The position numbers and the translations under genes are program-made. DNA of 44,859 nt. It comes from Actinomycetota bacterium (lineage in GTDB: Bacteria; Actinomycetota; Humimicrobiia; Humimicrobiales; Humimicrobiaceae). The stretch spans positions 1 through 44,859 of the forward strand of contig JAPLCN010000154.1 of NCBI GenBank assembly GCA_026392215.1, given 5' to 3'. Below the pieces are notes generated by a model. It was not told where the DNA came from. It did not search any database and saw only the letters and a list, made by a program, of their open reading frames with translations. Shown here piece after piece: positions 22,541 through 31,151 of this stretch. How positions within the stretch are numbered: position 1 is the first letter of the stretch; every line of letters starts with the position of its first letter.

Positions 22541-23371
22541 ATGGAAGAAGAAATTATAAAAAAAGCTGTCAGGGAAAATTATGCAAAAGCTGCAACAGGT
22601 AGCTCATGTGGTTGCGGATCCATAACCAACTGTTGCGGACAGGTTGACATGGCTGAAGAAATCAGCACCGGTATCGGATATTTTGAGGAAGATCTGGCAA
22701 AATTACCCAAAGGATCCAATTTGGGTTTGGGTTGTGGAAATCCAATAGCGATGGCCTCCTTAAAAAAAGGCGAGGTTGTTCTGGATTTAGGTTCCGGAGC
22801 GGGAATAGATTGTTTCCTGGCCGCTGAAAAAGTTGGACCTGAGGGTAAAATCATAGGTGTCGATATGACCCCTGAAATGCTGGAAAAAGCCAGGGAGAAT
22901 GTTAATAAAAGCAATTATAAAAATGTTGAATTCAGATTGGGAGAAATTGAGAACCTGCCGGTTGCAGATAGTACTATAGATATAATAATTTCAAATTGTG
23001 TGATTAATCTTGTTCCAGATAAAGACAGAGTTTTCTCGGAAGCATTCAGGGTCCTTAAACCAGGCGGAAGGATAATGGTATCTGATATTGTTTTATTAAA
23101 AGAATTACCTGAAATTATTCAGAACAATATGTCTGCTTATGTTGGCTGTATTTCCGGTGCAATCATTAAAGACAATTATTTGAATGCTATCAAATATGCC
23201 GGTTTTAAAGATGTAAAAATTATGGACGAAGCAGTTTTCCCGCTTAATTACATCATAGGTGATGAAACAGCTTTAATAGTTAAAAACAAATTGAACTTAT
23301 CTGAAAACCAGATAAAGGATGTAGAGAATTCCATTGCAAGCATAAAGGTTTATGCACTAAAATCTTATTAA
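22541..23371 (+). CDS. arsM: Arsenite S-adenosylmethionine methyltransferase ArsM
   Basis: ArsM methylates As(III) stepwise with SAM, giving methylated and volatile arsenicals. The 276-residue protein has the SAM motif DLGSGAGID (82-90) and the conserved cysteines expected to bind arsenic: Cys31/32 (NCCG), Cys65 (GLGCGNP), Cys153 (SNCV) and Cys203 (VGCISGA). AGGAG lies about seven bases before the ATG. No arsR or arsenic transporter gene is adjacent, so control is not visible; the gene seems to be a single unit between a cupredoxin relic and an opposite radical SAM gene. Family assignment is strong. Confidence 0.95.
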   Translation: MEEEIIKKAVRENYAKAATGSSCGCGSITNCCGQVDMAEEISTGIGYFEEDLAKLPKGSNLGLGCGNPIAMASLKKGEVVLDLGSGAGIDCFLAAEKVGPEGKIIGVDMTPEMLEKARENVNKSNYKNVEFRLGEIENLPVADSTIDIIISNCVINLVPDKDRVFSEAFRVLKPGGRIMVSDIVLLKELPEIIQNNMSAYVGCISGAIIKDNYLNAIKYAGFKDVKIMDEAVFPLNYIIGDETALIVKNKLNLSENQIKDVENSIASIKVYALKSY

Positions 23372-25914: not shown

Positions 25915-26973
25915 CTAACAAAGCGGACATTTTTCGCTGCACATGGAGCAGAGCAGATGGAGATGATTACAAAAGTAGATGTTTGTAATACTCTTTCCGC
26001 AACCTTGGCAAACAAGAGGATCCAATGCCTTGGTAACAGGGTTATAGATCAAGGAAACATTTTCCCGAGTCCTTCTAATAAAGATGTTATAAAGGACTTT
26101 AACGGCTGGCGTATTGATCAGCATGACCGCACAGGGCTCTACATTTATCTTAATGCTGTATTTTTTAAACAGATCGTCCCTTTTTCTTTCGAGTTCATCA
26201 GGTAGAAGGTCTATTTTTTCACGCCTTTCTTTTATCAACTCCTCTGAAAGACGAGGCCTTTCAAGGTTTTTTTCCATTTCTTTTTCCAGGGCATGATAAT
26301 ATTCTTCAAGATTTGCCACATCCCTCCTGAAGCGCCTTGTCATGGTTTCATGGAAGGAATTTAATTCGTCCATCAGGATCCCTTTTGATTGCTCTTTAAT
26401 ACATTTCATAACCCTTTCCAATTGCCCATCTTTCCAGATGGGCTTTTGAAGAGGAATAAAATTTTTTCCAGCGGCAGAGAACAACTCTGCCATGTGGGGG
26501 ATATAGGCCCCTGTTTCCAGATTAAAAACAAGACTCACTAGACCCTGCTTTTGCTCATCGCTTTGAGCCGTATACCGGCAGGTCAGGAAGATGTATGCGG
26601 TGTTAATTTTTGCCCGGCTCTCCGTTTTGCCCACCGATTTGGAAAAAAAGAACTGCTCCTGGATCAGACTGTCAAAACCCTCTCTTTTTAGATAGTCAAA
26701 CTGAAGCTGGCAGGCCAACAAAGGTACATCTCCACAAACTGCATCTACCATTTTTTCGAGCAGGGAGGAGCCGTAATTGATAGAATAAACCCCTTCTGAT
26801 TCAGGGTCTGATCCGGTATTTATATTAATATGCTCAGAGGTCCCGAAAACCTCTGACAAATTTTCAGGCAGGAGAGCTTCAAATCCATGCTCATTTCTTT
26901 CCAGCACTGCCCCCTGATTCTCGAGAAATCTACAGGCAAATTCTTCCAGTTCTTGATTGGATTTAGAGTTCAT
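25915..26973 (-). CDS. Unrecognised protein with C-terminal RING-like zinc finger
   Basis: A 352-residue protein whose main body I do not recognise. Residues 1-200 are a mixed alpha/beta region. Residues 205-290 are a helical, charged, likely coiled-coil region (YYHALEKEMEKNLERPRLSE). The last 31 residues hold C-x2-C-x9-C-x3-H-x2-C-x2-C-x3-C-x2-C (Cys322, 325, 335, His339, Cys342, 345, 349, 352), the order of ligands of a C3HC4 RING or treble-clef finger, with one spacer a residue short of the usual minimum. The ATG at 26973 overlaps the end of the helicase gene by 11 bases and has GGTGA upstream; an ATG at 27000 is less likely. It is the last gene of coiled-coil, SNF2 helicase, finger protein. 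Translational coupling implies a shared complex. Function unknown. Confidence 0.75.
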   Translation of the reverse strand: MNSKSNQELEEFACRFLENQGAVLERNEHGFEALLPENLSEVFGTSEHININTGSDPESEGVYSINYGSSLLEKMVDAVCGDVPLLACQLQFDYLKREGFDSLIQEQFFFSKSVGKTESRAKINTAYIFLTCRYTAQSDEQKQGLVSLVFNLETGAYIPHMAELFSAAGKNFIPLQKPIWKDGQLERVMKCIKEQSKGILMDELNSFHETMTRRFRRDVANLEEYYHALEKEMEKNLERPRLSEELIKERREKIDLLPDELERKRDDLFKKYSIKINVEPCAVMLINTPAVKVLYNIFIRRTRENVSLIYNPVTKALDPLVCQGCGKSITNIYFCNHLHLLCSMCSEKCPLC

Positions 26974-29305
26974 AATTTTCACCAAAAAGTTTTTTATCAA
27001 GCTCTTTGGACTTTTGATAGCTGGTTTTGGCCCTCATTAACCTGCTTCCCAGTTGTCCAAAGGCTGTTTTTATTTCTTCTTCAGATCTTGAATTCACCCA
27101 GATGTCATAAACCGTTTCAGAAAAGTCCTTCTCCTCCTTGATCCGCCCCAATATCATGTCAATCTCTCCAATCACCATCTCAAACATGTTGATTTTCCTA
27201 TCCAATATCTCAAGAATATAATCCTCCACACTTCCTGCAGCGCACAGGTTGTAAATCATAACCTCTTGTTCCTGCCCGATACGGTGTATCCGGCCGATTC
27301 GCTGTTCGATCTTCATTGGGTTCCAGGGGAGATCATAATTGAGCATCTGATGGCAGAATTGGAGGTTGCGGCCTTCACCGCCAATTTCTGTGGTGAGCAG
27401 AATATCCTTGTCCTCCTTGAAGCTCTGAATTTGTTCATCCTTGCTGCGGTTATCCATCTTACCATGAAATAGTGAATGGCTGATCCCTTTGCTTGCCAGA
27501 AATTCAGACACATGATCCAGTGTGCCATGGTACTTGACAAAGAGGATCATTTTGCCTGGATAGGATCTAATAAGCTTAAAAAGCAGCCTGTCTTTGCTGG
27601 TAGTATGTATAGAGCAGCAAAGATTGTTTATGGCATAGAGCTTCTTTTTGTGTTCGAGGAGCATATCTCGCCTTGCAAGAATTCGGGAAAGGGTTAATCT
27701 CACTGCGCGAGGTGAAGAACCCGCCTCAGCCAGGAGATTTTTTAGCAGTAATGTATGACCTGAGCCATTGGTCTCATTTATATCTTTTATCAGGGTAGTG
27801 ATTTTTTGATACAGCTCGATTTCCAAAGAGTCTGGGACCACCTTTATGGTCTGAGCAAACCGGGGAGGGATATCAATCTTTGCAAAGGCCCTGGTATTTC
27901 GTACCATGACCTGTCCAAGAAGGTCTTTGAGGTGGCTGCGGTTTCGGGGATCAGTGGGATCTCCGCGGGTCATGAATTTTTCGCGAAAGTCGGAGGCTGT
28001 CTTTAACTGACCTGGTTTGAGAAGGGTAACGAGATTGTAAAGCTCCATCAGATTGTTTTCCACAGGTGTCGCCGTAAGGAGAAGTAAAAACCTTTTTTTC
28101 AAGGCATTGATAAGTTTCCAGTTTAACGTGTTTCGATCCTTTAGGTGGTGTGCCTCATCAACTATGACCATGTCATATTCCCTTTGGGTGACTATGGGAA
28201 AATTCTTCTTTGACTTAGCAAGATTGATGGATGCAAGAATAAAGTCTTCTTTCCAGAAGGACTGCTCCCGGGTGTGGTAACCAGGATCATCTGTGGATGG
28301 AAAGTTAAGTCCGAATTTGACCTTCAGTTCCTCCTTCCATTGGCTTACAAGTGGTGTTGGTGTTAGTATAAGGGCGCTTTTTACCATACCCCTCTGAATA
28401 TATTCCTTAAGTACCATAAGGGCCTCTATAGTCTTGCCCAGTCCTACCTCATCCGCCAACAAGGCCCGGCCATGAAAGGTCTTCAAGATTTTTCTGGTAG
28501 TCTCTTCCTGGAACCAGAATGATCGAACGTTTTTCAGACTATTAAAACAGATAAGACTTTCAAAGGTCTCTTTAAAACGGATTCGATGTCCTTCTAGCGT
28601 AAGTTGGTAGTTCTCCAGAGAGGTAAGGTGCCCATCTACCAGGGATTCTTTGAAGGCCACTGGGTCCACCTGAATGTATATAGGGATTTCTGGGAGGGGG
28701 CTTTTATCTACATGATCTCCAGGGACATCGGCGTTTTCGGGATAAGCAACGATTTCTTTGGGTTCTTTTTGCCTATTTTCATTCTTGGACGTTTCAATAA
28801 GCGAGTTTATGGCCGCCAGCTTTTGTGTTGTTTCCAACTGGGCTTGGCAATGTTTCTGGCTTTTAATAAGGGATTCTCTCAGGGCCTTCTTTCCGCGTGC
28901 CTTTATCTTTGAAATGCTCTTTAAAGTTTCTTGAATAACACATAGTGCCTGTTTGTATTTACCATTCTCCTCCAGCAGCTGGCATAAAAGCGGCATTTGG
29001 CCAGATTTTATAAGTCCATGATTGTAAAGGCCCAAAAGCGCATTGAGTTCTATGTCGGACCTTTTCATCAAATATCCAAGACGGCCCATTTCCTGAAGGC
29101 ATTCTTCATTCTTTGGATCCAAACGCAGAACCTTTTCCAGGTAAAAGAGCGCCTTATCCAACTGGCCCTTATCCTCAAACCCGAGGGCTTTATAAAAAAG
29201 AGGCTCAGTCTTTTCCCGAAGAAGAGCCCTGACCGGTCTCTCTCGGCGTTCTTTCTGTTTAATCTTCCTCTTGGCCTTTTTCTTTTCCTCTTTTGTCCTG
29301 GGCAT
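26963..29305 (-). CDS. TPR and SNF2/RapA-like ATPase (DEAH helicase)
   Basis: A 780-residue Swi2/Snf2 translocase. The N-terminus is very basic (KKKAKRKIKQKERRER), followed by a TPR-like helical repeat at about 33-75 (ALFYLEKVLRLDPKNEECL) and further helices to about 200. The motor has DEVGLGKT (285-292), DEAH (383-386), LLTATPVENN and, near 640-680, GGEGRNL ... QRIGRIHRIGQ. All ATPase motifs are intact. The closest known group is bacterial RapA/HepA-type SNF2 proteins that remodel nucleic acid-protein complexes; several SNF2 proteins also serve in phage defence. GAGG precedes the ATG. It follows the coiled-coil gene by 24 bases and overlaps the finger-protein gene. Bases are visibly richer in G+C than in core genes. 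Confidence 0.9.
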   Translation of the reverse strand: MPRTKEEKKKAKRKIKQKERRERPVRALLREKTEPLFYKALGFEDKGQLDKALFYLEKVLRLDPKNEECLQEMGRLGYLMKRSDIELNALLGLYNHGLIKSGQMPLLCQLLEENGKYKQALCVIQETLKSISKIKARGKKALRESLIKSQKHCQAQLETTQKLAAINSLIETSKNENRQKEPKEIVAYPENADVPGDHVDKSPLPEIPIYIQVDPVAFKESLVDGHLTSLENYQLTLEGHRIRFKETFESLICFNSLKNVRSFWFQEETTRKILKTFHGRALLADEVGLGKTIEALMVLKEYIQRGMVKSALILTPTPLVSQWKEELKVKFGLNFPSTDDPGYHTREQSFWKEDFILASINLAKSKKNFPIVTQREYDMVIVDEAHHLKDRNTLNWKLINALKKRFLLLLTATPVENNLMELYNLVTLLKPGQLKTASDFREKFMTRGDPTDPRNRSHLKDLLGQVMVRNTRAFAKIDIPPRFAQTIKVVPDSLEIELYQKITTLIKDINETNGSGHTLLLKNLLAEAGSSPRAVRLTLSRILARRDMLLEHKKKLYAINNLCCSIHTTSKDRLLFKLIRSYPGKMILFVKYHGTLDHVSEFLASKGISHSLFHGKMDNRSKDEQIQSFKEDKDILLTTEIGGEGRNLQFCHQMLNYDLPWNPMKIEQRIGRIHRIGQEQEVMIYNLCAAGSVEDYILEILDRKINMFEMVIGEIDMILGRIKEEKDFSETVYDIWVNSRSEEEIKTAFGQLGSRLMRAKTSYQKSKELDKKLFGENYEL

Positions 29306-29329
29306 ATACTGACCTCACTAAACGCTTAA

Positions 29330-30397
29330 TTATTTCTCCTGGGACTGCCTTCTGGTCTGTTCTGAAGCCAGTTGCTGCAGACTTGCAAATGATTTAAGGT
29401 TTGATGATCCCTCAACGGACTTAACGGCGATATCCTGAACCTTTTGATAGGATTTCTCCAATTGTCCTGAAAGGTTAGCAATCTGCCCGCTCTGCTCTTT
29501 TACAGTTTTTTCAAGAGACTCGATTCGAGTTTTGAGCACGTTTCGTTCGCCTTCAAATTCTTTTCTTATTAATTCCTCTCTATTTTTTGCTTCAAGCGTA
29601 ATTCTTTCTGATGTCTCCTTAATTGTTTTGTTGACAGCTTCTTTGATTTCATCGGGAAAGGCAATAACCTTCTTTTGTAATTCCGCTAATTCTTCTTCCC
29701 TTTCGGAGACTGCTTTTTCTCTCCCAGTAAGCTCTTTTTCCATATACTCTTTTTTCAACTGAATCTCTTTTTCTGTTTTTGCCTTCTCATCTTCAAACTT
29801 ATCTTTTGCCAACCATTGTTCCCGCTTAAAGGTATAGCCATATTCTTCCTTTTCTCTTTCTCGTCTTTTTGCCTCTGCTGCATCTCTTTCTTTGATCTCT
29901 GCTTCAAGCCCTTTTTTCTCTTTTCCCCACTCCTCACGAGTTGTGCTGATTTCCCGGTTCAATTCTTCCTTTCGGGCAGTCATTTCCAATTCAAATTCCT
30001 GGCGCTTCTTATTCTGCGCTTCTATTAATGCTGCAAGTGTCTCTGCTGATCTTTCTATCTCATATAATTCTTTAAGCTCCTCATCTTTAATTTCAATAGC
30101 TTTCTGAATTTGATTGAATTTACTGACCTCTTCCTCCAGTCCATCGGAAATACTGGTTAGTCTTTTTCCTATTTCCAGCTTCAGATTGCCGATCTCTTTA
30201 ACAACCCCCTCTGAAGATAAGGTCTCTGCCACTTCCACAACCTCTCTCTTCTTTTTTTCTTCAATCTTTTTTTCTGGTTTCAGTTCAGCTTCACTCTTCT
30301 CTTGCAATTGTTTCAGAAGCGCATGATAAGCATCAAGCATCTCCTTTTTCGTCTTTGACATAGATAGTTCCCTGACCATTATTTTTTCCTCTGCCAT
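29330..30397 (-). CDS. Long coiled-coil protein, first gene of helicase operon
   Basis: A 355-residue, strongly charged protein (many Glu, Lys, Arg). Apart from the first 30 residues and a Ser/Gln-rich tail it reads as near-continuous alpha-helix with heptad-like spacing, for example KERDAAEAKRREREKEEYGY and EREEELAELQKKV, with a possible break at FPDEIKEAV. No enzymatic motif, signal peptide or membrane helix. AAAGGAG lies five bases before the ATG. It could be a scaffold, a sensor rod or an SMC-like arm, but without an ATPase of its own. Its tight linkage to the SNF2 gene suggests a partner role. Family not recognised. Confidence 0.75.
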   Translation of the reverse strand: MAEEKIMVRELSMSKTKKEMLDAYHALLKQLQEKSEAELKPEKKIEEKKKREVVEVAETLSSEGVVKEIGNLKLEIGKRLTSISDGLEEEVSKFNQIQKAIEIKDEELKELYEIERSAETLAALIEAQNKKRQEFELEMTARKEELNREISTTREEWGKEKKGLEAEIKERDAAEAKRREREKEEYGYTFKREQWLAKDKFEDEKAKTEKEIQLKKEYMEKELTGREKAVSEREEELAELQKKVIAFPDEIKEAVNKTIKETSERITLEAKNREELIRKEFEGERNVLKTRIESLEKTVKEQSGQIANLSGQLEKSYQKVQDIAVKSVEGSSNLKSFASLQQLASEQTRRQSQEK

Positions 30398-30581
30398 GAT
30401 TTCTCCTTTCTTTCATTGATAGTTTAATACAAATCAAAAGATGGAACAAGTACTAAAGAATTTGATCTTGAAATTTAACCATAAGAATTTAAAAAACAGC
30501 TAAGTATCGATAAAAAATCAGTTCGGAGAGAGTAATTGACAAGGAGCTGTGGAATTGAGCCGCTGTTAGCTGATGTTTCCC

Positions 30582-30911
30582 CTACTCGTTTAATAATAAG
30601 TCAATATTTTCTAATATTTCTTTCAAAATTTCTTCTGATGTTTTTTCAATGAAAGCTGCATTCCTGGATTTCCAATCAAGACTTCTAATTTGATCGGATA
30701 AAATTACACCTTCAATTATACTATTTATTCTGACTTCAAAAGGGTAGTCCTTTATTTTACTTGTGATGGGACAAATTATTGCTAAATTTGATTTTTGATT
30801 ATATTCTTTTTTAGAAAGAACAATTCCTGGTCTTCTTCCTTTTTGTTCATGGCCTTTTTGAGAATCAAATTCCAACCAGATAATATCTCCACGATCAGGA
30901 ATGTATGACAT
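30582..30911 (-). CDS. mazF: MazF/PemK-family toxin endoribonuclease
   Basis: A 109-residue toxin that should cut mRNA. Family marks are GDIIWLEFDSQKGHEQKGRRP with the catalytic Arg region, GIVLSKKEYN, ICPITSK (Thr50/Ser51) and RSLDWKSRNA. The ATG directly follows the TAA of the antitoxin gene, with AGGAG inside the antitoxin's end, giving coupled translation and higher antitoxin yield. No damage seen. Confidence 0.93.
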   Translation of the reverse strand: MSYIPDRGDIIWLEFDSQKGHEQKGRRPGIVLSKKEYNQKSNLAIICPITSKIKDYPFEVRINSIIEGVILSDQIRSLDWKSRNAAFIEKTSEEILKEILENIDLLLNE

Positions 30912-31151
30912 TTACCACTCCTCTTTCCCATGGGGAGATCCAAAATCTATTTCACCATGTTGATTCTCATTAGTAATTAATTGAATTAGGTCATTTAAAG
31001 ATTTCTTTTTTTTTGCTGGTCTAATAATTATTTCATTTTCTTTTCTTTGAATATCGACAATGCTTCCATCAAGTAAATGCAATTCTTTTGCATAAACACT
31101 TGGTATTCTAAGTCCTAAACTGTTTCCCCATTTCTGAACACTGGTTTGCAT
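30912..31151 (-). CDS. mazE: MazE-family (AbrB-fold) antitoxin
   Basis: A 79-residue AbrB-fold DNA-binding antitoxin. The start QKWGNSLGLRIPS is diagnostic of MazE, followed by the basic beta-strand region VDIQRKENEIIIRP and an acidic tail that would block MazF. AGGAG lies five bases before the ATG. It heads the two-gene operon and probably represses it with MazF through the inverted repeat overlapping the promoter. Confidence 0.93.
   Translation of the reverse strand: MQTSVQKWGNSLGLRIPSVYAKELHLLDGSIVDIQRKENEIIIRPAKKKKSLNDLIQLITNENQHGEIDFGSPHGKEEW

Follow-up and report, generated by a model that had tools for sequence, protein, structure and literature searches.

How an operon-like cluster of three tightly spaced genes around a Swi2/Snf2 (SNF2) ATPase should be understood, and which of its products actually belong together, is the question raised by a locus in an Actinomycetota genome (assembly GCA_026392215.1). 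The stretch analysed here, referred to as the window, comprises 44,859 nucleotides of contig JAPLCN010000154.1. A preliminary description, made from the letters of the window alone, had proposed a three-gene operon encoding a defence or repair complex, formed by a coiled-coil protein, an SNF2 ATPase with TPRs and a protein ending in a RING-like finger.

Gene organisation and base composition

The three minus-strand open reading frames are present as claimed, with a 24-base gap between the first two and an 11-base overlap between the last two. The first (29330..30397, minus strand) encodes a protein of 355 aa, the coiled coil of which is real and which we judge to be a neighbour outside the conserved unit. 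The second (26963..29305, minus strand) encodes a Swi2/Snf2 ATPase subunit of 780 aa that combines a basic N-terminus, a TPR-like region and a RecA1-RecA2 motor and ends shortly past the helicase core. The third (25915..26973, minus strand) encodes a partner subunit of 352 aa counted from the ATG, or 361 aa from an upstream TTG, which is a RapA-type C-terminal half carried as a gene of its own; the stop of the SNF2 gene and the start of the partner gene share the 11 bases at 26963..26973 (minus strand). The raised G+C content reported for these genes was borne out, with 44.0% for the SNF2 gene, 42.2% for the partner gene and 39.5% for the coiled-coil gene, compared to 34.7% for the window and 30.2% for mazEF. 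The presence of mazEF beside the genes was established by Pfam, and a cbi-like transporter and a radical-SAM gene were also recognised nearby in the window. An arsenite methyltransferase gene is located at 22541-23371 (352.5 bits, over the NCBIfam subfamily cut-off of 263).

The SNF2 motor protein and its relatives

The SNF2 motifs are intact (I, II, III, V and VI at residues 285, 383, 411, 642 and 669), as had been read from the translation, and they lie in a helicase core at 27158..28510 (minus strand; approximately residues 266-716, placed by Pfam and motif positions). With its SNF2-type helicase motifs and its Pfam matches to SNF2-rel_dom (E 2e-36) and Helicase_C (E 4e-23), the protein qualifies as a Swi2/Snf2 ATPase (SF2). 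The TPR in its N-terminal extension was recovered as well, as a TPR_2 match at residues 35-66 (E 9.8e-6) that falls just below Pfam's curated cut-off, within a TPR-like stretch at 29078..29203 (minus strand; residues 35-76). Shorter cyanobacterial relatives, among them an SNF2 protein of 569 aa, lack this stretch.

The nearest named models are DrmD_b (233 bits, cut-off 950) and RapA (208 bits, against 576 for the NCBIfam equivalog NF003426), both far under cut-off, followed by DrmD (205 bits, cut-off 610), and the best PADLOC and NCBIfam matches of the motor are to DrmD (E about 1e-69). Judged by sequence, the motor is nearest to the defence families (DrmD, BrxHI/BrxHII) and to RapA. A tree built from helicase cores, in which few fused (single-chain) rows are represented, places the SNF2s having a partner together (support 86/82; 88% of bootstrap trees) and separates them from RapA (100/100) as well as from the DrmD-like enzymes. 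The split into two genes likely arose once, support for this being moderate and the fused comparison set small. The copy of the window falls within those of Desulfobacterota, a contig from Desulfobacteraceae being one of its near neighbours. This placement implies transfer between phyla, and the raised G+C content is consistent with it.

Conservation and spread of the SNF2-partner pair

When the third protein was used as query, 14 public loci were found; profile searches detected it in 11 of the 397 Actinomycetota genomes and in 21 of the 297 from the Desulfobacula phylum, and tblastn located it on cyanobacterial and Rhodovastum plasmids. Each of the 44 distinct loci reached by way of the partner has an SNF2 gene of the same family immediately upstream and in the same orientation, a count that comprises loci with readable upstream sequence and excepts degraded fragments and contig edges. 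The reverse search gave the same picture, as the partner follows the SNF2 gene in 12/12 haloarchaeal plasmids examined and in all 16 Desulfobacterota loci with downstream sequence, two further loci reaching contig ends. The SNF2 reading frame ends at or near the start of the partner, and the 11-base overlap recurs in many bacteria (an offset of -7 bases being repeated across loci), from which we infer that the two genes are translationally coupled. Distances among the SNF2s correlate with those among the partners (r=0.931, n=42; permutation maximum 0.224 in 2000 permutations), a value that shared descent inflates and that therefore indicates joint inheritance rather than contact.

The conserved unit thus consists of two genes, the SNF2 gene and its partner, without a constant third gene. 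This pair has spread horizontally and is found in bacteria of sediments as well as in cyanobacteria and haloarchaea, often on plasmids or next to antiviral genes; its cyanobacterial copies are carried on mobilizable plasmids, and several Desulfobacterota copies are situated among housekeeping genes. Degraded partner fragments with stops or gaps were seen in four genomes whose relatives have intact copies (L039/L042 in G009, L108 in G513, L109 in G684 and L113 in G405), which indicates that losses of the pair occur besides gains. Viral contigs yielded distant SNF2s only, the partner not being detected in them.

Identity of the partner protein

The AlphaFold model of the partner (pLDDT 84.8, built with 17 sequences) shows, in order, an alpha+beta domain, strands, two long helices (184-236 and 244-272) and strands again. 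In a Foldseek search of this model against the PDB four matches were below E 0.001, all of them to E. coli RapA (E 1.8e-6 to 1.3e-5, probability 1.00), and the next match had an E of 0.21; against viral structures Foldseek gave no match. The TM-scores to RapA are low (0.31-0.35, rmsd 11-13), meaning that the match covers a chain of domains and not one rigid arrangement, and identity to RapA C-termini is weak (10-18%). Alignment by hhalign of a profile of 22 partners with the C-terminal halves of RapA, DrmD and related single-chain enzymes reached E 1.9e-6 (score 57.8, 246 columns) and spans residues 7-277 of the window partner. In a control with an earlier, seven-sequence RapA/DrmD_b profile, the score was 50.0, compared to at most 23.4 for 60 column shuffles, 22.8 for the reversed profile and 17.2 for the helicase half. 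The family profile is needed for this result, since hhalign of the partner with a single RapA sequence was not significant. The partner profile found nothing significant among PDB sequences, and Pfam and NCBIfam gave sub-threshold matches only, some of them driven by coiled coil and those to DrmD falling at the DrmD C-terminus.

On the combined model and profile data, we identify the partner as the C-terminal half of a Swi2/Snf2 ATPase of the RapA/BrxHII type, separated from its motor. Its domain layout agrees with the one published for RapA and BrxHII in PMC12839542. Domain 1 (26644..26955, minus strand; approximately residues 7-110) is predicted to be alpha+beta and, by model and alignment, matches the degenerate REase-like domain described there, and the modelled segment at 26041..26634 (minus strand) is laid out as the same source gives it for the C-terminal domain of RapA/BrxHII. 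The degenerate-REase and sheet/coiled-coil domains of the RapA-type C-terminus are both present, on a separate protein. No invariant putative nuclease residue was found in the partner alignment, which makes the partner probably non-catalytic.

The partner of the window ends in a predicted zinc-binding tail (25918..26010, minus strand; residues 322-352) with a CxxC...CxxC core, a four-Cys zinc ribbon that is usual in the family. The two CxxC motifs are kept in 37 of 43 complete homologues, among which the remaining RING-position ligands are variable; some relatives end right after the second CxxC, and cyanobacterial partners lack the tail altogether. The tail is consequently not a RING finger, despite the C3HC4 ligand order first read in it. 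In two haloarchaeal loci (L060 and L061) the partner is greatly extended at its C-terminus (676 and about 1245 aa; unannotated in L061), and an annotated restriction endonuclease is encoded downstream in both loci (of the Mrr type by Pfam in L060).

Genomic context

Annotated genes for a DUF1156 methylase and/or a DUF499 ATPase lie beside the haloarchaeal pairs in 8/12 loci, one of which was counted on its DUF1156 gene, its ATPase being labelled only AAA+. The haloarchaeal pair apparently takes the place of the helicase in a BREX-related DUF499/DUF1156 system. Neither DUF1156 nor DUF499 family members were found in the host genome of the window, so that membership of such a BREX-related (DUF499) system applies in part to the haloarchaeal relatives and not to the window pair. 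Outside the haloarchaea the pair is orphan or loosely associated. Membership in DISARM, Zorya, Dpd or BREX on the strength of PADLOC matches was rejected, given that every model of this kind is matched by the SNF2 core and that the companion genes are absent.

A particular arrangement was observed on one contig of genome G035 (C2, L155-L157), both ends of which encode the same ORF. It carries two SNF2-partner pairs that have diverged and are separated by 13 kb. Heme-biosynthesis genes flank one of them; the other lies upstream of DUF1156/DUF499 genes, and the BREX-related-like locus near this second pair has other large ORFs in the helicase position.

Comparison with known systems

RapA (HepA) has a motor of like fold, and the partner resembles the C-terminal region of RapA in fold and profile. 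RapA, however, is one chain of ~960 aa, whereas two chains are found here, the motor chain of 780 aa being without the C-terminal half; in addition, RapA has a Tudor-like N-terminus where Pfam finds only TPR-like matches in the SNF2 protein, the zinc tail is found here, and the two occupy separate branches of the tree. DrmD of class 1 DISARM is similarly alike in motor and in the profile of its C-terminal half (DrmD_b subset) but is a single chain of about 870-1150 aa. At the window locus drmA, drmB and the DISARM methylase are lacking, with no second helicase or DNA methylase gene adjoining the pair, and no DrmA, DrmB or DrmC was recognised beside the pair.

According to PMC12839542, BrxHII of Type-3 BREX and the helicases of DUF499 systems have the same order of a Swi2/Snf2 motor, a degenerate REase and a sheet/coiled-coil domain. 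BrxHII carries these domains in cis, compared to in trans here, and the pair is therefore not a BrxHII; moreover, BREX-type loci differ from the window and from most bacterial pairs, which have no adjoining ATPase or methylase. ArmA of ARMADA, as described in PMC12458937, has a BrxHII-like RapA/Swi2-Snf2 motor that is needed for phage defence, and ATPase mutants lose protection, but it is a single chain in a four-gene system with a YprA helicase, unlike the two-gene pair. What is known of the single-chain relatives from these two sources places them in defence: DrmD in DISARM, BrxHII in Type-3 BREX, the helicases of DUF499 systems and ArmA in ARMADA (PMC12839542, PMC12458937).

A split form of this helicase is undescribed in the literature searched, which included the available parts of the two closest papers and left supplementary data and most subscription papers outside its scope. 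While the kind of motor was already known, what is new is that it consists obligately of two chains, how widely this form occurs and what the partner is.

Proposed function and alternative explanations

The explanation that we favour, with a probability of about 0.62, is that the pair constitutes a two-subunit, split Swi2/Snf2 ATPase of the RapA/DrmD/BrxHII type, probably serving conflict with mobile DNA. SNF2 would be the motor, and the overlapping downstream gene would supply what in single-chain relatives is the C-terminal half of the same polypeptide: a degenerate nuclease-like domain followed by a sheet/coiled-coil domain, to which a zinc tail is added here. The two proteins may form a complex in which SNF2 would translocate on double-stranded DNA and the non-catalytic partner would contact and sense DNA or a bound protein. 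With less certainty, this motor may serve conflict with phages or plasmids, like its relatives in DISARM, Type-3 BREX, BREX-related systems and ARMADA. The DUF1156/DUF499 neighbours in haloarchaea, the mobilizable cyanobacterial plasmids and the sparse occurrence (11/397 and 21/297) argue for such a role, which we judge more likely than not. Counting against it are the absence of DUF1156 and DUF499 from the host genome of the window, which leaves this copy with no known methylase or nuclease partner, and the position of several Desulfobacterota pairs and of one G035 pair among housekeeping genes. Of the defence or repair complex that was proposed at first, defence remains as the most likely class of function; the inclusion of the coiled-coil protein and the RING/Rad5-like nature of the third protein do not. 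A more far-reaching version, which we put forward tentatively and consider rather improbable, is that the pair in itself makes up an entire antiviral or anti-plasmid system of two genes that needs no methylase, no ATPase and no dedicated nuclease. An obligately split RapA-type motor would strip or stall foreign DNA or its transcription, and the system would be older than its use in haloarchaeal BREX-related loci.

The main rival explanation, possible at perhaps one chance in four, holds that the pair is a split RNA-polymerase-associated remodeller which, like RapA, frees or recycles stalled RNA polymerase and has no part in defence. The only significant structural matches of the partner are indeed to RapA, the NCBIfam RapA model is among the best for the SNF2 protein (208 bits), some copies of the pair are located among housekeeping genes (several in Desulfobacterota and one of the two in G035), and when the host genome was searched with the SNF2 protein, no second strong match that could be RapA emerged. 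Against this, two Desulfobacterota genomes encode a full-length RapA besides the pair, the SNF2s are split from RapA in the tree with full support, and a patchy, plasmid-borne distribution is ill-suited to a housekeeping factor. Moreover, the Tudor-like N-terminal domain, which in RapA controls activation by RNA polymerase (PMC8501970), was not found in the SNF2 protein by Pfam at E 1, TPR-like matches occupying its place.

A true three-protein defence or repair complex that includes the coiled-coil protein, as first proposed, is very unlikely and was rejected on co-occurrence. Coiled-coil partners are found in some defence systems, and the spacing of the genes is tight in the window and in one other genome (G033), but these are the only 2 of 49 pair loci in which the coiled-coil gene adjoins the pair, the other 47 being without it, although the available upstream sequence is short in several. 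The three genes therefore do not form a conserved operon: that they would rarely be found together had been named beforehand as the outcome speaking against the proposal, and this is what we find for the three, while SNF2 and partner are essentially always together. Four full-length copies of the coiled-coil gene (75-88% identical) occur elsewhere without the pair, in G002, G003 (twice) and G034. About 60-75 bases upstream of the gene are common to 4/6 copies in mostly different contexts (window 30398-30480 and the flanks in L044, L045 and L046), most of the copies without the pair having this stretch just ahead of the start, and downstream similarity ends at or just past the stop codon, G033 excepted. 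This suggests that the coiled-coil gene and its own control region may move as one unit. The protein is similar to phrog_29668 along almost its entire length (E 9e-39), and its relatives are found in Bacillus phage G, in Lysinibacillus phages LysYB1/2 and on a cyanobacterial megaplasmid; gp268 of phage G shows this near full-length likeness with no SNF2 gene annotated beside it. With this match, and with the third protein identified as a RapA-type C-terminal half, the earlier statement that two of the proteins are of no known family no longer applies. The coiled-coil gene is a recent, chance neighbour of the pair.

Small toxin-antitoxin-like genes adjoin the coiled-coil family in 6/6 loci read (mazEF at 30582-31151 in the window, and L044-L048). 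Elsewhere these are PIN, DUF433-like, BrnT-like and nucleotidyltransferase/HEPN-like ORFs, most of them judged by eye.

As doubtful as the three-protein complex, or slightly more so, is a two-gene maintenance element of plasmids and islands, the targets of which would be replication or partition and not invaders: cyanobacterial copies adjoin ParA/ParB-like or relaxase genes on mobilizable plasmids, but many copies are located on long Desulfobacterota and Actinomycetota contigs with no replication genes recognised nearby. Finally, a Rad5/HLTF-like role in DNA-damage tolerance, with SNF2 paired to an E3-like protein of RING type, is highly improbable and was rejected on conservation. In its favour are the order of Cys and His residues near the C-terminal end of the window protein and very weak RING-type matches (Sina_RING E 6.6). 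Against it, the family does not conserve the eight C3HC4 ligands of such proteins, just the two CxxC motifs being widely kept, its cyanobacterial members have no finger, and the rest of the protein is a RapA-type C-terminus.

Conclusions

The motor family of the RapA/BrxHII type is central to several defence systems, and a partner that is encoded separately lets the role of its C-terminal half be probed directly, by adding or omitting it in trans. In bacterial and archaeal plasmid annotations, the 'hypothetical protein beside SNF2-related protein' receives a testable assignment, and a misleading RING annotation is removed.
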